From a virus: a stretch of 44,935 bases of DNA. The stretch lies in the IMG/VR virus record IMGVR_UViG_3300000313_000159, positions 1 to 44,935 of that record; one strand, 5' to 3'. Positions 3,316 through 16,106 of the stretch are shown here, in pieces (position 1 is the stretch's first letter; each line of letters opens with the position of its first letter). The position numbers and the translations under genes were made by a program. The notes beneath the pieces are model-generated. The model did not search any database. It was not told where the DNA came from and was given only the letters and a program-made list of their open reading frames with translations.

Positions 3316-5850
3316 ATGTTTGATAAAGGACAAGGTGAAATTAGTTATGAACAATTCTTGCGTAATAAAATTTCAATAGCGCCGGACAAAGGGCTTATAT
3401 TTTCGCCGGATGATGTAAGTAAGAGCCTAAAACCGCACGAACGCGACAGTGCTTTGTGGATACTGAAAGGCGGACAACGTGCTCTGTTTTCTTCATTTGG
3501 ACTGGGAAAAACAATTACACAGCTTGAAGCAATGCGGCTTATCTGTTCACGAGAGACTGGTAAGTGTCTTATCATAACACCGCTGAATATTGTGCATGTT
3601 TTTCAGGAAGACGCGAATAATCTGCTCAATGGATTACAGATCAAATATATAAAAACGCAGGAAGAAGCAGAATCAGCAAATGAACGTATTTTAATAACAA
3701 ATTATGAACGTGTTCGTGACGGAGATATACGGCCTGACTATTTCACAGCTGTATCACTCGATGAAGCTTCAGTACTCAGGTCATTCGGCAGCAAGACATA
3801 TCAGGAATTTCTTCCCCGATTCCAGAATGTAAAATATAAATTTGTTGCGACGGCGACACCTTCTCCGAATAGATATAAAGAGCTTATTCATTATGCCGGA
3901 TTTCTTGGAATTATGGATACAGGACAGGCTCTTACAAGATTTTTCCATCGCGATAGTACAAAAGCAAATAACCTTACTCTTTATCCGCATATGGAAAATG
4001 AGTTCTGGGCATGGGTATCTACATGGGCGTTGTTTCTCATAAAACCATCTGATCTGGGGTATTCCGATGAAGGATATACTCTCCCTGAGATGAAAATCAT
4101 CTATCACAAAGTTGAAGTTGATGATTCTACAGCAGGCTTTGAGGACAACGGACAGGGCAAACTTATCCGCGATGCCGCTATAGGGCTAAAAGATGCTGCA
4201 AGAGAGAAGCGTGATTCACTCCCGTCTCGTATAAACGAGATGATGAAGATTGTAAATACGTCTCCTGAAGATCATTTTGTCATATGGCACGATCTTGAAG
4301 CTGAGAGACATGCAATTAAAAAGGTATTGCCGGAATCTGCAGAAGTATTCGGTTCACAGGATTACGAAAAGAATACAGAATTGACACTTGCTTTCGAGCA
4401 GGGAAAAGTAAAATACCTTGCAACAAAACCTGATATAAGCGGACAGGGCTGTAATATGCAGTATCACTGCCATAAAGCGATATTTCTCGGTATAGGTTAT
4501 AAGTTTAATGATTTTATTCAGGCTGTTCACCGTATATACAGATTCGGACAAAAATACTCTGTTGAAATACATATCATCTATGCAGAAAGTGAACAGTCAG
4601 TTCTTGCTGATTTACAGAAGAAATGGAAACAGCATGATTATCTTGTTGCACGCATGGAAGAAATTATCAAGCGTAATGGACTTTCAAGTACAAATACAAT
4701 TGAAAAACTTGCGCGTACGATGGGTGTTGTCAGAGAAGAAGTCGATGGCCATAACTTCCGCGCTGTTTTCAATGACAACTGTCTTGAATTGCCTCATATT
4801 GCAGACAACAGTATTGATTTAACTTTTACTTCGATTCCCTTCAGTAATCATTATGAGTATACGCCAACCTACAATGACTTTGGACATAACGCGGATAACG
4901 AGAAATTTTTTGAGCAGCTGGATTATCTCACTCCGGAATTGTTACGTGTATCAAAGCCGGGGAGGATATGCGCTGTCCATGTAAAAGACCGGATATTGTT
5001 CGGTAACGCGACGGGTACCGGAATGCCAACTGTAGATCCTTTCAGTGATATGACAGTGTTCCATTTTATGAAGCATGGTTTTCAATACATGGGGCGTATT
5101 GTCATTCTGACTGATGTTGTCCGTGAAAATAATCAGACATATCGTTTAGGGTGGACGGAAAACTGTAAGGACGGTACAAAAATGGGAGTAGGATGTCCTG
5201 AATATGTACTTTTATTCCGTAAACTTCCGACTGATACAAGCAATGCATATGCAGATACTCCGGTATCACGCAGCAAGGATGAATACACCCGTGCACACTG
5301 GCAAATTGACGCAAGCGGATTTTATCGCAGTTCCGGAAATACACTTGTCACTGCAGAAGATATTCTGAATTGTCCTATGTCGAATCTTGCACAGACGTAT
5401 AAAGAGTTTTCACGGACTCACGTATATGACTATGACAAACACGTCGAACTTGCCGAAGAGCTTGAGGACGATGATAAACTTCCGTCGTTATTCGGTGTAA
5501 TGGAAAACGGCAGCTGGAGCGGATTTATATGGGACGATATAAACCGTATGCTCACATTGAACAGCGAGCAAAGCAGAAAGGAAATGACTATGCACATTTG
5601 CCCATTGCAAATTGACGTAGTAAAACGAATTATAGCCCGCTACAGTTCTGCAGGTGAGACTGTACTTGACCCCTTTGCAGGTCTTTTTACAGTACCTTAT
5701 GAAGCGGTAAAAATGGGAAGAAAGGGAATTGGCATAGAATTAAACCATGAATCGTTTCACGATGGACTTGTTTATATGAAAGAGGCAGATGAAAACGTTA
5801 ATGCACCGACTTTGTTTGATACTATTGAAATGAAGGAAGATGTAGTATGA
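3316..5850 (+). CDS. SNF2-type helicase fused to a DNA methyltransferase
   Basis: The 844-residue protein has two enzymatic halves. The N-terminal part is a superfamily 2 helicase/translocase: Walker A FGLGKT near residue 62, the DEAS form of the DExx box near 149, and the motif VI segment QAVHRIYRFGQ near 403. The C-terminal part is a methyltransferase in beta-class order: the motif IV equivalent near 503 precedes motif I (DPFAGLFTVPYEA) near 783. Motif IV reads TSIPF where TSPPY or DPPY is usual, so catalysis may be altered. It probably methylates phage DNA while tracking along it. Its stop overlaps the next ATG. Confidence 0.85.
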   Translation: MFDKGQGEISYEQFLRNKISIAPDKGLIFSPDDVSKSLKPHERDSALWILKGGQRALFSSFGLGKTITQLEAMRLICSRETGKCLIITPLNIVHVFQEDANNLLNGLQIKYIKTQEEAESANERILITNYERVRDGDIRPDYFTAVSLDEASVLRSFGSKTYQEFLPRFQNVKYKFVATATPSPNRYKELIHYAGFLGIMDTGQALTRFFHRDSTKANNLTLYPHMENEFWAWVSTWALFLIKPSDLGYSDEGYTLPEMKIIYHKVEVDDSTAGFEDNGQGKLIRDAAIGLKDAAREKRDSLPSRINEMMKIVNTSPEDHFVIWHDLEAERHAIKKVLPESAEVFGSQDYEKNTELTLAFEQGKVKYLATKPDISGQGCNMQYHCHKAIFLGIGYKFNDFIQAVHRIYRFGQKYSVEIHIIYAESEQSVLADLQKKWKQHDYLVARMEEIIKRNGLSSTNTIEKLARTMGVVREEVDGHNFRAVFNDNCLELPHIADNSIDLTFTSIPFSNHYEYTPTYNDFGHNADNEKFFEQLDYLTPELLRVSKPGRICAVHVKDRILFGNATGTGMPTVDPFSDMTVFHFMKHGFQYMGRIVILTDVVRENNQTYRLGWTENCKDGTKMGVGCPEYVLLFRKLPTDTSNAYADTPVSRSKDEYTRAHWQIDASGFYRSSGNTLVTAEDILNCPMSNLAQTYKEFSRTHVYDYDKHVELAEELEDDDKLPSLFGVMENGSWSGFIWDDINRMLTLNSEQSRKEMTMHICPLQIDVVKRIIARYSSAGETVLDPFAGLFTVPYEAVKMGRKGIGIELNHESFHDGLVYMKEADENVNAPTLFDTIEMKEDVV

Positions 5851-8161: not shown

Positions 8162-8764
8162 ATGGGTACATTGTATGAGATTACAGGAGACATGCTGGCC
8201 TTAAACAGCCTGATGGAATCTCTTGTAGATGAAAACGGCGATCCAAGGGAGCCAACAGAAGAGGAAATAGCGCAGATGCGCGAATGGTTTATAGGCAGCA
8301 AAGAGGAATTTGAAGGCAAAATCGAAAATTACTGCAAATATATCAGGAACTTGAAAATTGATGCCGCAGACATCGAAGCCGAACGCAAAAATCACGCAGA
8401 TGAATTAGCACGTCTTTCAAAACGCGCGAAAGCCAGCGAAAATAAGGCTAAATCAGTAACTAATCTACTGCGTTGGGGCATGGAACGGCTTAAAATGTCA
8501 AAATATAAAACTACCCTTTTTTCGGTAAGCATCCAGAACACGAAAAAATCAATCAACCAGCTGCAGGGCTATGACTGGCATGAAATACCGGAAGACCTAC
8601 TTAAAACGCCGGAAGTTGATACTGGTAAAGTTCAGGAGCTTATGTCAGCAGGAACAATAATCACAAAAGACGGCGACGAAAATTACGGAAAACTGTTTTG
8701 GGACAGCGGCAAAGAAATCAAGGGTATCAAATGGGCGCAGGGCAGTGCGCTTTATATTAGGTAG
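8162..8764 (+). CDS. Siphovirus Gp157-family protein
   Basis: A 200-residue protein with the Gp157 pattern: an N-terminal helix (LYEITGDMLALNSLME), an acidic linker, a long coiled coil (about residues 55-105, KIENYCKYIRNLKIDA onward) and a C-terminal part with TTLFSVSIQNTKKSI and the DG-x-x-x-KEIKGI ending. Family members sit beside SSB and recombination genes and have been linked to phage resistance. It starts a block with ssb and the Sak4-like ATPase under the promoter at 8070. Confidence 0.8.
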   Translation: MGTLYEITGDMLALNSLMESLVDENGDPREPTEEEIAQMREWFIGSKEEFEGKIENYCKYIRNLKIDAADIEAERKNHADELARLSKRAKASENKAKSVTNLLRWGMERLKMSKYKTTLFSVSIQNTKKSINQLQGYDWHEIPEDLLKTPEVDTGKVQELMSAGTIITKDGDENYGKLFWDSGKEIKGIKWAQGSALYIR

Positions 8765-8773
8765 GAGCATGAA

Positions 8774-9202
8774 ATGACAGATCAAAACCATGTTTTTTTA
8801 ATAGGACGACTTACGCGCGATATTGGAGCAGATGAACGCTCATTCGCATATGTAGGAAGTAATAATACAGCACGTGCAAATATCAGCATAGCTGTAAACA
8901 GAAGCGTAAAGAAAAACGACCAGTGGACAGATGAAGTATCTTATTTTGATGTCCAGATATGGGGCAAGACTGCTGAAAATCTGAAACAATACCTGCAGAA
9001 AGGAAAGCAGATAGCCATTGACGGATATCTGAAACAGGACAGATGGCAGAAAGACGGACAGAATTTCAGCAGAGTGTATGTTGTTGCAAACACTGTTCAA
9101 CTTTTAAGTGGTACAAAAAATGATAATGCACAAAATGAACCACAACAGCAGTATACGCCGAACAATGACGATGGCGGATTTCCTGAAGATATTCCTTTCT
9201 AA
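8774..9202 (+). CDS. ssb: Single-stranded DNA-binding protein
   Basis: 142 residues with an N-terminal OB fold: NHVFLIGRLTRDIG at the start, ISIAVNRS near 38, YFDVQIWGKTAENL near 59 and the KGKQIAIDGYLKQDRW strand. A disordered Gln/Asn-rich linker and the acidic tail tip GFPEDIPF follow; the tip is the docking peptide for replication partners. It protects single-stranded DNA during phage replication and annealing and probably works with the ATPase encoded 14 nt downstream. Confidence 0.95.
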   Translation: MTDQNHVFLIGRLTRDIGADERSFAYVGSNNTARANISIAVNRSVKKNDQWTDEVSYFDVQIWGKTAENLKQYLQKGKQIAIDGYLKQDRWQKDGQNFSRVYVVANTVQLLSGTKNDNAQNEPQQQYTPNNDDGGFPEDIPF

Positions 9203-9216
9203 AAGGTGGTTAAAAA

Positions 9217-10254
9217 ATGAACATAGAAAACACAAACAACATAGTACCTGATGATAATATCGTTATGATTCTTTATGGTCGAGGTGGTGTGGGAAAAACA
9301 ACTTTTGCTGCAACTGCTGATAAACCACTTATCATTGATTTTGAAAACGGAACAAAATTTCTTGGTGAGCGTGGTTTACAATGTGATGTAATACGTATGG
9401 CTGAATGGTTTACAAACGATGATAAAAAACAACTCAAAGACCTTTTGCCGCTATATAAAACAATTGTTCTTGACCCTATAGGCGATGCTATGGAAAAGCT
9501 CATTGTTTCGCATGGACTTGACAGCAGAAAATATCGTGCACCAGATGGCGGCCTGACAATGGCAGGCTGGGGCGAGGCTAAACGTCAGATGAAAGAGCTG
9601 ATAAAATGGCTGCGCGATGCAGGTAAAAATGTAATCCTTATTGCGCATGTAGCAGAAGGTAAAGACGGCGAGCAGACAACCTATCGTATCCAGATACAAA
9701 CAAAACTGTCAGATGAACTCCCTGCAATGGTTGATATTATCAGCTATATGGGTGTACAGAAAAAAGAAGGCAAAACGTCTGTGTGTTTGTATACTCCTGC
9801 TCAAGGTGGTAATTTTGACAGCAAAGACCGTACAGGCCGTGTACCAGAACTTGTAACTGTGTCCGAGAAAAATGGGTGGCATGATTTTCTTTCAAGCTTT
9901 GCTTCTGTTGAAAAAAAAGCAGAACAAAATAGACCTTCTCAATCTGAACAAAAACAACCTGCAAATAATACTCATCCACAAGCATCTAAAGAGGGAACAA
10001 AACCTGTTATGCAGAATGGAAAAGCGACTGAAAATGATTCAAATGAATGGAAAGAAGCGAGTGAATTGAAAAGCCTGCTTCGTGACAGCGAGTACCCTGA
10101 CCAGAAAAAAGTTTTCAGCAACAAGGAAGCGTGTATTTATTCAAATCGTGCACAAAAAGGCGAGAAAAGAATAGATTTAATCGACGAACTGCACGCAATA
10201 ATGGAGGAGCGCTTGAAAAAGTGGGAAGCTGACCATAAAAAAGTAACTGCATAA
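9217..10254 (+). CDS. Sak4-like RecA-fold ATPase (AAA_24)
   Basis: 345 residues. The N-terminal RecA-type core has Walker A GRGGVGKTTF near residues 24-33, DFENGTKFL near 41, and a Walker B-like IVLDPIGD near 86. The core ends near 240, followed by a Gln/Lys/Ser-rich linker and a small C-terminal domain (about 265-345). Phage Sak4-type proteins are single-strand annealing recombinases that cooperate with SSB, and ssb is immediately upstream. Its stop is followed directly by the large RNA region. Confidence 0.8.
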   Translation: MNIENTNNIVPDDNIVMILYGRGGVGKTTFAATADKPLIIDFENGTKFLGERGLQCDVIRMAEWFTNDDKKQLKDLLPLYKTIVLDPIGDAMEKLIVSHGLDSRKYRAPDGGLTMAGWGEAKRQMKELIKWLRDAGKNVILIAHVAEGKDGEQTTYRIQIQTKLSDELPAMVDIISYMGVQKKEGKTSVCLYTPAQGGNFDSKDRTGRVPELVTVSEKNGWHDFLSSFASVEKKAEQNRPSQSEQKQPANNTHPQASKEGTKPVMQNGKATENDSNEWKEASELKSLLRDSEYPDQKKVFSNKEACIYSNRAQKGEKRIDLIDELHAIMEERLKKWEADHKKVTA

Positions 10255-10259
10255 AAATG

Positions 10260-10990
10260 TCTTGGCCGTGACTATACGGCCATTAACAAGGTTCCGTGGC
10301 GGAATGGTAGACGCAGCTTTAAGAAATACGTCTAAGGGTCGACGAAAATTCACGAGGTACAACGTGTGAACTATGGGAAGGCTGTCGAGAGTGGGTTGAG
10401 AGTCATGTGTGGAGAACCTGAATTAACAGGTGATACCGACAGAACTAAACAGCATGATGTTCTGTTTTGTGTATGTAAGACGCGCCACACCTCTGCACGG
10501 TGCCCACCGAGTCATGCAGGTTCGAGTCCTGCCGGAACCAGCGGCCAGCATGATGGCCAGAGATAGCGTCGAAAATTTGCAATGTGTACAAGCAGAATCA
10601 TGATAACAGCATCACGAGAGGTGAAAGCCCCCGCCGGAGACGTACCCGGCAACATAGGGGGATAGTTTAGGAAGATACTATGCGCATAGTATGGACAGAA
10701 TAGCTAACTAGAGCATATGGATAATGTACATAAGCCATATGAGAGAGTTAGAAGAGGGACGTTCAAACCGTTCTCCCCTTATTCTGTTATTGTACATTCG
10801 TACAGGAAAGAAGAAACAGAATGTACCAGTGTGTACCGCGCTGTCGGATGCTGAAATGCACATAAAGGAAAGGCCGCGCGCAGGTCAGGGACTTTTTTTA
10901 GCAGACTAAACAGTCTGTAGCTACCGTGTTTCGGCCGGAGCTAACGCGGTGAATTGCCGCCGACGGGGTGATAAACTACGCCCGCAATAA
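10260..10990 (+). ncRNA. Large structured phage RNA region (GOLLD/ROOL-like candidate)
   Basis: About 730 nt between the Sak4-like and zinc-ribbon genes carry no convincing gene but many helices: GGCCGT/ACGGCC (10264-10281), the tRNA-like domain (10290-10540), GGCCA/TGGCC (10543-10558), CCCCC-GCCGG/CCGGC..GGGGG (10628-10661), ATACTATGC/GCATAGTAT (10675-10692), CTAACT..CATATGG/CCATATG..AGTTAG (10704-10751), ATTCTGTT/AACAGAAT (10781-10822) and CAGACT/AGTCTG (10902-10917). Size, prophage setting and an embedded tRNA recall GOLLD and ROOL, the very large phage-associated RNAs that often sit near tRNAs. Membership cannot be tested by eye. The exact ends are unknown; it may extend to the AGGAGTAGGCC ribosome-binding site at 11001. 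Confidence 0.65.
10290..10540 (+). ncRNA. tRNA-Leu-like domain interrupted by about 165 nt
   Basis: The 5' part has acceptor strand GGTTCCG (10290-10296), then TG and a class II Leu-type D arm, GCGGAATGGTAGACGC (10299-10314). The 3' part has T arm GCAGG-TTCGAGT-CCTGC (10516-10532), acceptor strand CGGAACC (10533-10539) and A73. The acceptor pairs perfectly over 7 bp; CCA is not encoded. Where the anticodon and variable arms should be there is a nested helix set: GTGGG/CCCAC (10391-10395/10503-10507), GTGTGG/CCACAC (10407-10412/10485-10490) and ACCTG/CAGGT. I cannot assign a continuous anticodon arm or a group I or II intron core. It may be an intron-bearing tRNA or a tRNA mimic. Confidence 0.75.
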
Positions 10991-11012
10991 AAAAGAACAA
11001 AGGAGTAGGCCA

Positions 11013-11273
11013 ATGGAAAAGAAGGAAAAAGTAACAATCGAAAAAGAAGTAAAAGTTACTTATTGTGATAGTTGTGGTGAAAAGATTGGAACAAGCGACC
11101 AGCAACATCAAAATGCAATACAGCTGTCATTTACTGGAACAGGATACACATTATATGGCAGTGCATGTAATTCAGAATGGGATTATGTTTTGTGCAGGAA
11201 ATGTGCAACAGCTTTGAAAGATTTTCTGGACGCGCATCACAGCTTACAAAAATTACCGGAAGCGGAGGAGTAG
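11013..11273 (+). CDS. Zinc-ribbon protein
   Basis: 86 residues. After a charged Lys/Glu-rich start come two Cys pairs, CDSCGEK near residue 18 and LCRKC near 60, the usual knuckles of a zinc ribbon. The ATG at 11013 follows AAAGGAGTAGGCCA, the shared extended ribbon-binding leader of this phage's early genes. It is the first gene after the large RNA region; DNA or RNA binding is possible. Confidence 0.65.
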   Translation: MEKKEKVTIEKEVKVTYCDSCGEKIGTSDQQHQNAIQLSFTGTGYTLYGSACNSEWDYVLCRKCATALKDFLDAHHSLQKLPEAEE

Positions 11274-13279: not shown

Positions 13280-13540
13280 GTGATAAATAAGAGAAAACAT
13301 AAATGTTTTGATGAAAAAGGGGAATTAATCGTTACTAAAAAGGAGCAGAAATCAATTGACTCATTAAAAAGGCTGTCAAAGTCATGGCCTAAGTCTATTT
13401 GGATTTTTGCTGCTGACGGTAGTTTGAATATTATGAAATGCAATGAAGTAAATGATATTGCCATTAATAGTGTCGGAGGAGTAGATCAAAATTATTTAAT
13501 TGACACCATTCCTATTATGTCAGATGGTGGCGATTGGTAA
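13280..13540 (+). CDS. Small protein, unknown
   Basis: 86 residues from a GTG start chosen because CGAGG lies about 8 nt upstream; an in-frame TTG at 13241 lacks such a site. It begins VINKRKHKCFDEKGELIVTK and includes SKSWPKSIWIFAADGSLNIM near 42-61. No family was recognised. Confidence 0.45.
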   Translation: MINKRKHKCFDEKGELIVTKKEQKSIDSLKRLSKSWPKSIWIFAADGSLNIMKCNEVNDIAINSVGGVDQNYLIDTIPIMSDGGDW

Positions 13541-13551
13541 GGAGTATAAAC

Positions 13552-13752
13552 TTGGCTCATATAATTGTTCACATGAAAGACGGAACAAAGCAGGATTATC
13601 CTGAAACATTTACTGCAGGCGGAAGCTGGCATACCTGCATTCATTATGAGGAAGGTTTTGCAGTTATAGAAGAAGCGGATGGAAGTCAGACGGCAATTCC
13701 GAACATGGATATTGCAAAGATTGACATTGAAAATACACGGAGAAATTGGTAA
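13552..13752 (+). CDS. Small protein from a TTG start, unknown
   Basis: About 66 residues. The TTG at 13552 is chosen because AAGGAG is positioned 7-8 nt upstream, whereas the in-frame TTG at 13534 precedes that ribosome-binding site. It forms a likely small beta-rich fold (AHIIVHMKDGTKQDYPE, then GFAVIEEADGSQTAIP). The stop overlaps the next ATG (TAATG). Confidence 0.5.
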   Translation: MAHIIVHMKDGTKQDYPETFTAGGSWHTCIHYEEGFAVIEEADGSQTAIPNMDIAKIDIENTRRNW

Positions 13753-15266: not shown

Positions 15267-16106
15267 ATGACAGTATACGAGATTGTTACAGAGAAAATCT
15301 TGAAACAGCTTAAACAGGGGATTGTACCATGGCAGAAGCCGTGGCATGGAAAAGGGGCGTTTAATCGTGTGACCAGAAAGTATTATTCATTTCTGAATCA
15401 GATGATTTTGGATCATACTGGGGAGTATGCAACACTAAAACAGTGGAATCTTGTAGGCGGCAGTATCAAGAAAGGTGAACACGGCGAACAGGTTGTTTTC
15501 TGGCATGTCATGCAGAAAGAAGCAACAACAGATGACGGCAGTACAGAAAAGAAAAGTATTCCTGTTTTAAGATATTACACTGTATTCCATATTTCGCAGG
15601 TTGAAGGTGTTAAATCTCTTACTCATACTGCAGACGAATCTGCAGTACCTGTTGGAAATGCAGAAAAGATAAAAAAGGATTATGAAACACGCGAGCACAT
15701 CACGATATATGAAGAATACAGTGATAAGGCGTATTATGATCCTTTGTCAGATTACATCCATATTCCAGAAATTGCACAATATTCTAATGCAGCAGAGTAT
15801 TACAGTACATGTTTTCATGAGATGGTGCATTCTACAGGTTATTCAGGCAGGCTTGACAGAAACTTACTTAAAAATGCCGCTTTTGGCAGTGAAGAATATT
15901 CAAAAGAAGAATTGATTGCAGAAATTGGATCAGCAAACCTCTGTGAGATTGCAGGATTGGACACTGAAAAATCTTTCAAAAACAGTGTAGCCTATATATA
16001 TTCATGGATTCGTGCTCTTGAGAATGACAGCAGGATGATTGTATCAGCTGCAGGTAAAGCAGAAAAGGCCGTGAAATATATACTCGGCGAAAACATCGAA
16101 GCATAA
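15267..16106 (+). CDS. ArdC-like antirestriction/ssDNA-binding metalloprotease-type protein
   Basis: 279 residues. The N-terminal domain (about 1-120) has the ArdC signature ending GIVPWQKPWHG near residue 18, plus VFWHVMQK and a PVLRYYTVFHISQVEG strand. The C-terminal zincin-like domain has the HEMVHSTG metal site near 184, with SKEELIAEIGSANLCEIAG supplying a downstream acidic ligand. ArdC-type proteins bind single-stranded DNA and protect incoming DNA from restriction. It is driven by the promoter at 15186 and followed by a perfect inverted repeat. Confidence 0.85.
   Translation: MTVYEIVTEKILKQLKQGIVPWQKPWHGKGAFNRVTRKYYSFLNQMILDHTGEYATLKQWNLVGGSIKKGEHGEQVVFWHVMQKEATTDDGSTEKKSIPVLRYYTVFHISQVEGVKSLTHTADESAVPVGNAEKIKKDYETREHITIYEEYSDKAYYDPLSDYIHIPEIAQYSNAAEYYSTCFHEMVHSTGYSGRLDRNLLKNAAFGSEEYSKEELIAEIGSANLCEIAGLDTEKSFKNSVAYIYSWIRALENDSRMIVSAAGKAEKAVKYILGENIEA

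Follow-up and report, generated by a model that had tools for sequence, protein, structure and literature searches.

A covarying double-hairpin RNA motif, recurrent in phages and often set ahead of tRNAs or tRNA-like folds, in an untranslated gap behind a Sak4-like gene

What does a phage encode in some 760 untranslated bases (10255-11013) that separate, on the + strand, the gene for a Sak4-like recombinase from the next, small gene? The window, i.e., the whole stretch analysed here, is a single viral contig, 44,935 bases long. The gene for the Sak4-like annealing protein stops at 10254 and the next one starts with an ATG at 11014, with a GGAG box ahead of it; the same recombination region holds genes for a Mu Gam-like protein (8162-8764) and an SSB protein (8774-9202). 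Two ORFs of 61-66 aa run across 10541-10990. No sigma-70-like promoter was found by a promoter search for the RNA of this region, and an IMG/VR search returned no relatives of the flanking Sak4 gene. The original prediction recognized here a large structured RNA and proposed a spirochaete version of the giant phage RNAs GOLLD or ROOL, or a new class. Of this reading, the structured non-coding region, its place in an early (recombination) operon, the tRNA-like domains and a covarying part stand, while the GOLLD/ROOL identity does not. Most likely, the gap is a stretch of an early phage operon that is not translated and instead gives rise to an RNA of modular build.

The helices previously listed for 10541-10990 are all present on the + strand. 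They comprise GCCGG/CCGGC (10633-10637/10646-10650), the stem of hairpin 2 of the element that we term motif A; a perfect palindrome of 18 nt (10675-10692), which falls inside the second of two tRNA-like domains; CTAACT..CATATGG/CCATATG..AGTTAG (10704-10730/10725-10751); ATTCTGTT/AACAGAAT (10781-10788/10815-10822); and GTACATTC/GAATGTAC (10792-10799/10819-10826). As had been claimed, the last two compete with each other, and the CCCCC/GGGGG helix is in competition both with hairpin 1 of motif A and with the acceptor stem of domain 2; hence, the named helices are not all independent. The folding energy of 10541-10990 (+) amounts to -143.8 kcal/mol against -122.1 +/- 5.8 kcal/mol in 100 dinucleotide shuffles, none of which folds as low (z -3.76). 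This segment also has the lowest z among 51 sampled 450-nt + strand segments of the contig (median -0.72), a comparison based on 10 shuffles each that serves for ranking only. The next lowest value (-5.96, from 10 shuffles) belongs to 15301-15750, within a gene (15267-16106) assigned by PHROGs to an anti-restriction protein.

The organization of the gap points to a modular array of tRNA-like domain, motif and tRNA-like domain, in which covariation is limited to the 42-nt motif. Predicted domain 1 (10290-10539, +), recognized in the sequence and by a tRNA-like scan, is composed of an acceptor stem GGTTCCG/CGGAACC (10290-10296/10533-10539), a tRNA-Leu-like D-arm (10299-10314) and a T-arm GCAGG-TTCGAGT-CCTGC (10516-10532), with ~180 nt standing at the position of the anticodon arm. 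It is followed by a linker (10540-10610, +), in which GCCAGAGATAGnrTCGAAAATyTG is common to the window and locus L004, by motif A (10611-10652, +) and by predicted domain 2 (10654-10782, +), detected by an acceptor plus T-arm scan and by a scan of the non-coding island. The latter has an acceptor stem ATAGGGGGA/TCCCCTTAT, a T-arm GGACG-TTCAAAC-CGTTC (10757-10773) and a long arm (10704-10751) that substitutes for the anticodon arm. With the arms imposed, neither fold loses more than 0.6 kcal/mol relative to the unconstrained minimum (constrained cloverleaf of domain 1, -74.1 vs. MFE -74.7 kcal/mol; constrained fold of domain 2, -34.2 vs. -34.3 kcal/mol). Neither domain is called as a canonical tRNA by ARAGORN or the Rfam tRNA model, because longer arms replace the anticodon arm, and both are modelled folds that rest on single sequences without close homologues. 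The array ends with a 3' tail (10783-10990, +) that includes the two competing helices and for which blastn of 10541-10995 gave no match better than E 0.5. Elsewhere in the window, an ordinary tRNA-Arg (CCT) at 30010-30082 occurs without motif A and has a hairpin, TTGTCGGG..CCCGACAA, just upstream.

Motif A (~42 nt in the window) is built, in consensus order, of the trinucleotide ACG, an optional base, hairpin 1 and, directly after it, hairpin 2. The window carries all of these in order: ACG (10614-10616), hairpin 1 with one A-C mismatch (10618-10632) and hairpin 2, GCCGG-AGACGTAC-CCGGC (10633-10650), with the AGACGUAM loop, all on the + strand. Across loci, hairpin 1 has a stem of 4-6 bp and is variable in sequence and loop; hairpin 2 follows the consensus NCNGG-AGACGUAM-CCNGN, the loop being nearly invariant, and an A stands directly after it in 52 of 65 loci. 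Our covariance model, R1, matches the window with 56.7 bits (E 9e-16), the window sequence being part of its training set. In two successive sets, of 41 and 50 distinct sequences, the share of paired cells is about 97.6-97.8%, a value raised by the dereplicating finder, which required at least 4 bp in hairpin 1. Changes on both sides were found at six of nine pairs (all four of hairpin 1 and two of the five of hairpin 2), none of 500 shuffles reached any of five covariation measures, and sliding the pairing partners destroys the signal. Loop conservation is overstated, since the alignments were selected partly by fixed loop letters; the letters that were fixed in most scans do not account for the covariation of hairpin 1. 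In a further scan, any combination but C-G was allowed at the third pair of hairpin 2; all 27 new contigs, as well as L004, had a Watson-Crick pair at this position (U-A, G-C or A-U). A phage RNA family with two covarying hairpins is thereby well supported by comparative sequence analysis. The original prediction had named an absence of covariation among homologues as evidence against it; covariation is seen, for the 42-nt motif A only. The upstream ACG is complementary to CGU of the loop and both are invariant, which suggests an ACG-CGU pseudoknot, a pairing that never varies. A protein-coding origin of motif A was rejected on the basis of single-base variation in loop length and the covariation of hairpin 1.

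Beyond the window, the sequence 10605-10652 matches phage P1 (blastn, E 1e-5, independent of R1) at a site 3 nt upstream of the tRNA-Asn gene. This site lies in the ban operon, which is repressed by C1, within its long untranslated leader; the P1 record carries no annotation at this place. Pattern scans with parts of the P1 match located motif A in more than 100 IMG/VR contigs, and searches of named phages located it in Bordetella phages IFTN2, IFTN6 and PHB04, Enterobacter phages Arya and Tyrion, and Escherichia phages Bas97 and Alux-21. R1 finds one strong copy each in P1, IFTN2, Alux-21 and the window, with an additional weak match in Alux-21, while the island of L371 contains two copies, 180 nt apart. 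In whole cellular genomes, motif A was detected in one of 398 Pseudomonadota, with two doubtful pattern matches in 399 Burkholderiales, by a non-exhaustive model scan that scored few candidates per genome; such rarity is as expected for a phage element. Weak matches were not used, because false ones, at about E 1e-5, were obtained with R1 in the GC-rich genome of a Streptomyces. Exact-pattern matches in genome contigs (L100-L217) were mostly due to chance and located in coding DNA; L204, a copy of the P1 type, was the only one accepted as real. Some CCGGAGACGTAACCGG matches were dropped because their translation gives 'TGDVTGN' repeats like those of tail-fibre genes. The genes found near motif A include those for RecT-like, RecE-like and SSB proteins, a repressor and an HNH endonuclease. 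A second recurrent element, GAATGCGCAGGCTGATGCGC, occurs in the same non-coding islands (L259, L321, L326, L339, L344, L249 and L362) and is possibly a further linker module.

Motif A lies a few nt 5' of a tRNA or a tRNA-like fold in a significant minority of loci. Among 111 unique loci, 20, many of them P1-like, have a complete tRNA (ARAGORN) that begins a few nt 3' of hairpin 2, compared with none of 203 control stretches taken 400 nt away (0/102 and 0/101). Scanning for an acceptor stem just 3' of motif A with a T-arm at its 3' side gave nine of 74 dereplicated loci, the window among them; the rate was 0.1% in shuffles and 0.4% in offset controls of real sequence. Tested anywhere in the island, tRNA-like folds are present in 13 of 65 loci and in one of 213 control stretches; the window has two. 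L347 shows a similar arrangement with an acceptor-like stem of 23 positions. In L004, the tRNA directly 3' of motif A (4884-4958, minus) has the same acceptor strands as domain 1 of the window and a UUA anticodon predicted by ARAGORN, i.e., that of an ochre suppressor. L389 (5191-6191) and related contigs contain long stems, GCATCGGrGTGTGATC/GATCACACCCCGATGC, which enclose a tRNA anticodon arm or T-arm; these represent other tRNA-derived folds, upstream of motif A. About 80% of motif A loci are without a recognisable tRNA-like fold, and in several loci a ribosome-binding site and a gene start stand immediately 3' of the motif.

What follows motif A is exchangeable. Families of related contigs share identical sequence that breaks off precisely where hairpin 2 ends, with different sequence beyond. 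A tRNA-like insert follows motif A in Alux-21 and is lacking at this place from Arya and Bas97, and in P1-like phages tRNA-Asn and tRNA-Arg alternate. In L051 (470-2470, minus), motif A (1111-1151) and tRNA-Tyr (1031-1106) lie in frame and stop-free within the gene for a RecE-like exonuclease (phrog_7655), an arrangement that looks like a cassette insertion in a linker. Given the junction switch, the Alux-21 insert and the L051 arrangement, motif A often marks a cassette boundary with its 3' end.

As for function, an explanation has to cover a compact, fixed RNA fold that occurs in early untranslated RNA and borders, on their 5' side, exchangeable units of which some are tRNAs. We propose that the gap gives rise to an early-transcribed array of tRNA-like units, with a self-folding linker between them, which is matured by host tRNA enzymes; we consider this plausible, with chances somewhat short of even. 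In the order tRNA-like domain 1, motif A, tRNA-like domain 2 and tail, the tRNA-like units would be the cutting sites of host enzymes, RNase P for the 5' end and a nuclease for the 3' end. Motif A would fold on itself, perhaps with the ACG-CGU pseudoknot, and in this way keep the leader out of the acceptor stem, allowing a clean release of the downstream unit. This account suits the window well, as its predicted folds contain a misfold that such a linker would need to prevent, namely that of CCCCC (10628-10632) with the acceptor GGGGG. The tRNA-like units with longer arms might, more speculatively, have no part in decoding and serve as stable scaffolds or decoys instead. A role in tRNA processing is not general, since most motif A loci have no recognisable tRNA-like fold; for this reason, and because some copies precede a gene start, antitermination, an exchange junction and self-cleavage are kept as rival explanations. 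On a broader scale, many phages could share a system in which non-coding RNA cassettes built on tRNA-like scaffolds are exchanged, motif A serving as its linker with a new role in their release or protection (or being a new ribozyme or polymerase-binding RNA), a possibility that we hold only tentatively. If guided release, read-through or self-cleavage proves true, it would explain the phages' upkeep of tRNA or tRNA-like cargo in untranslated early RNA.

Among the rivals, a processive antiterminator like HK022 put, in which the nascent double hairpin would bind RNA polymerase and ensure read-through of long structured untranslated RNA, seems rather unlikely. The put element consists of two stem-loops and acts in cis without phage proteins (PMC9378689), and motif A resembles it in having two adjacent hairpins with a fixed loop, in its single strong copy per genome (complete phages searched and the window) and in its location in early operons and untranslated islands. 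However, R1 has no match in HK022, in sequence or structure; put is ~70 nt long with long bulged stems, in contrast to ~38 nt for motif A; the copies of Tyrion and Arya head no long same-strand gene operon; and one island, that of L371, has the two copies mentioned above. The cassette boundary itself may be taken to mean that motif A acts chiefly at the DNA level, as the junction where phage recombination (Sak4, RecT) swaps cassettes, including now-decaying tRNA genes, and that its RNA has little function. The exact joining of upstream modules to differing sequences in many contigs, the Alux-21 insert missing from Arya and Bas97, the alternating tRNA genes of P1-like phages and the in-frame tRNA-Tyr cassette all agree with it; yet, hairpin 1 covaries without sequence conservation, and recombination depends on sequence identity and does not call for pairing, except where its substrates are single-stranded hairpins, so that we regard this reading as unlikely.

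A small self-cleaving ribozyme, whose cut near the 3' end of motif A would free the downstream tRNA or mRNA, is very improbable: the core is compact, possibly pseudoknotted, with fixed loop nucleotides, it directly precedes, on the 5' side, the unit that would be freed and the A after hairpin 2 recurs in most loci, but no Rfam ribozyme was matched. Most improbable of all is a divergent GOLLD- or ROOL-like giant RNA forming a multimeric cage. The region is indeed phage-borne, non-coding, tRNA-associated and highly structured; nevertheless, both covariance models remain silent on 10200-11100 in the Rfam search, even at E<=10, and its relatives have only the 42-nt motif in common rather than a core of several hundred nt. 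Motif A provides a handle on a wider class of tRNA-associated phage RNAs. It represents a structured RNA of P1 and many other, unrelated phages, without an entry in the family libraries searched, and is directly testable in E. coli.

No family of Rfam 15 covers the region, either at the gathering score or at E<=10, and the letters of motif A do not occur in the open papers searched, subscription literature and supplements being outside that search. We conclude that motif A is a new, uncatalogued family within the tRNA-associated phage RNAs, of which an earlier description could exist in that literature. A group I or II intron in a tRNA gene was rejected, as no Rfam core was matched at E<=10. 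Like tmRNA and its tRNA-like domain, the units of the window retain the acceptor and T-arm, and another domain replaces the anticodon arm; tmRNA itself was rejected (ARAGORN and Rfam negative, no tag peptide found). YrlA, a bacterial Y RNA, likewise has a tRNA-like module and gave the best weak Rfam match (15.9 bits vs. a cut-off of 69, E 3.2); the region is not a member. Proteo-phage-1 RNA (RF03044) is also a phage RNA motif located just 5' of weak tRNA-like sequences, as seen in L270, where it precedes two weak, degenerate tRNA matches (13372-13716); L270 carries the motif A core as well, and RF03044 differs from it in sequence and in its place there, with no match to motif A. HK022 put is similar in its two adjacent hairpins in phage early transcripts, and differs in length, sequence and shape. 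GOLLD and ROOL are, like the present region, phage-borne, highly structured and often near tRNA islands, and GOLLD can carry tRNAs in its linker (PMC12286853); in contrast, the conserved unit described here is 42 nt long and recurs ahead of many different sequences.
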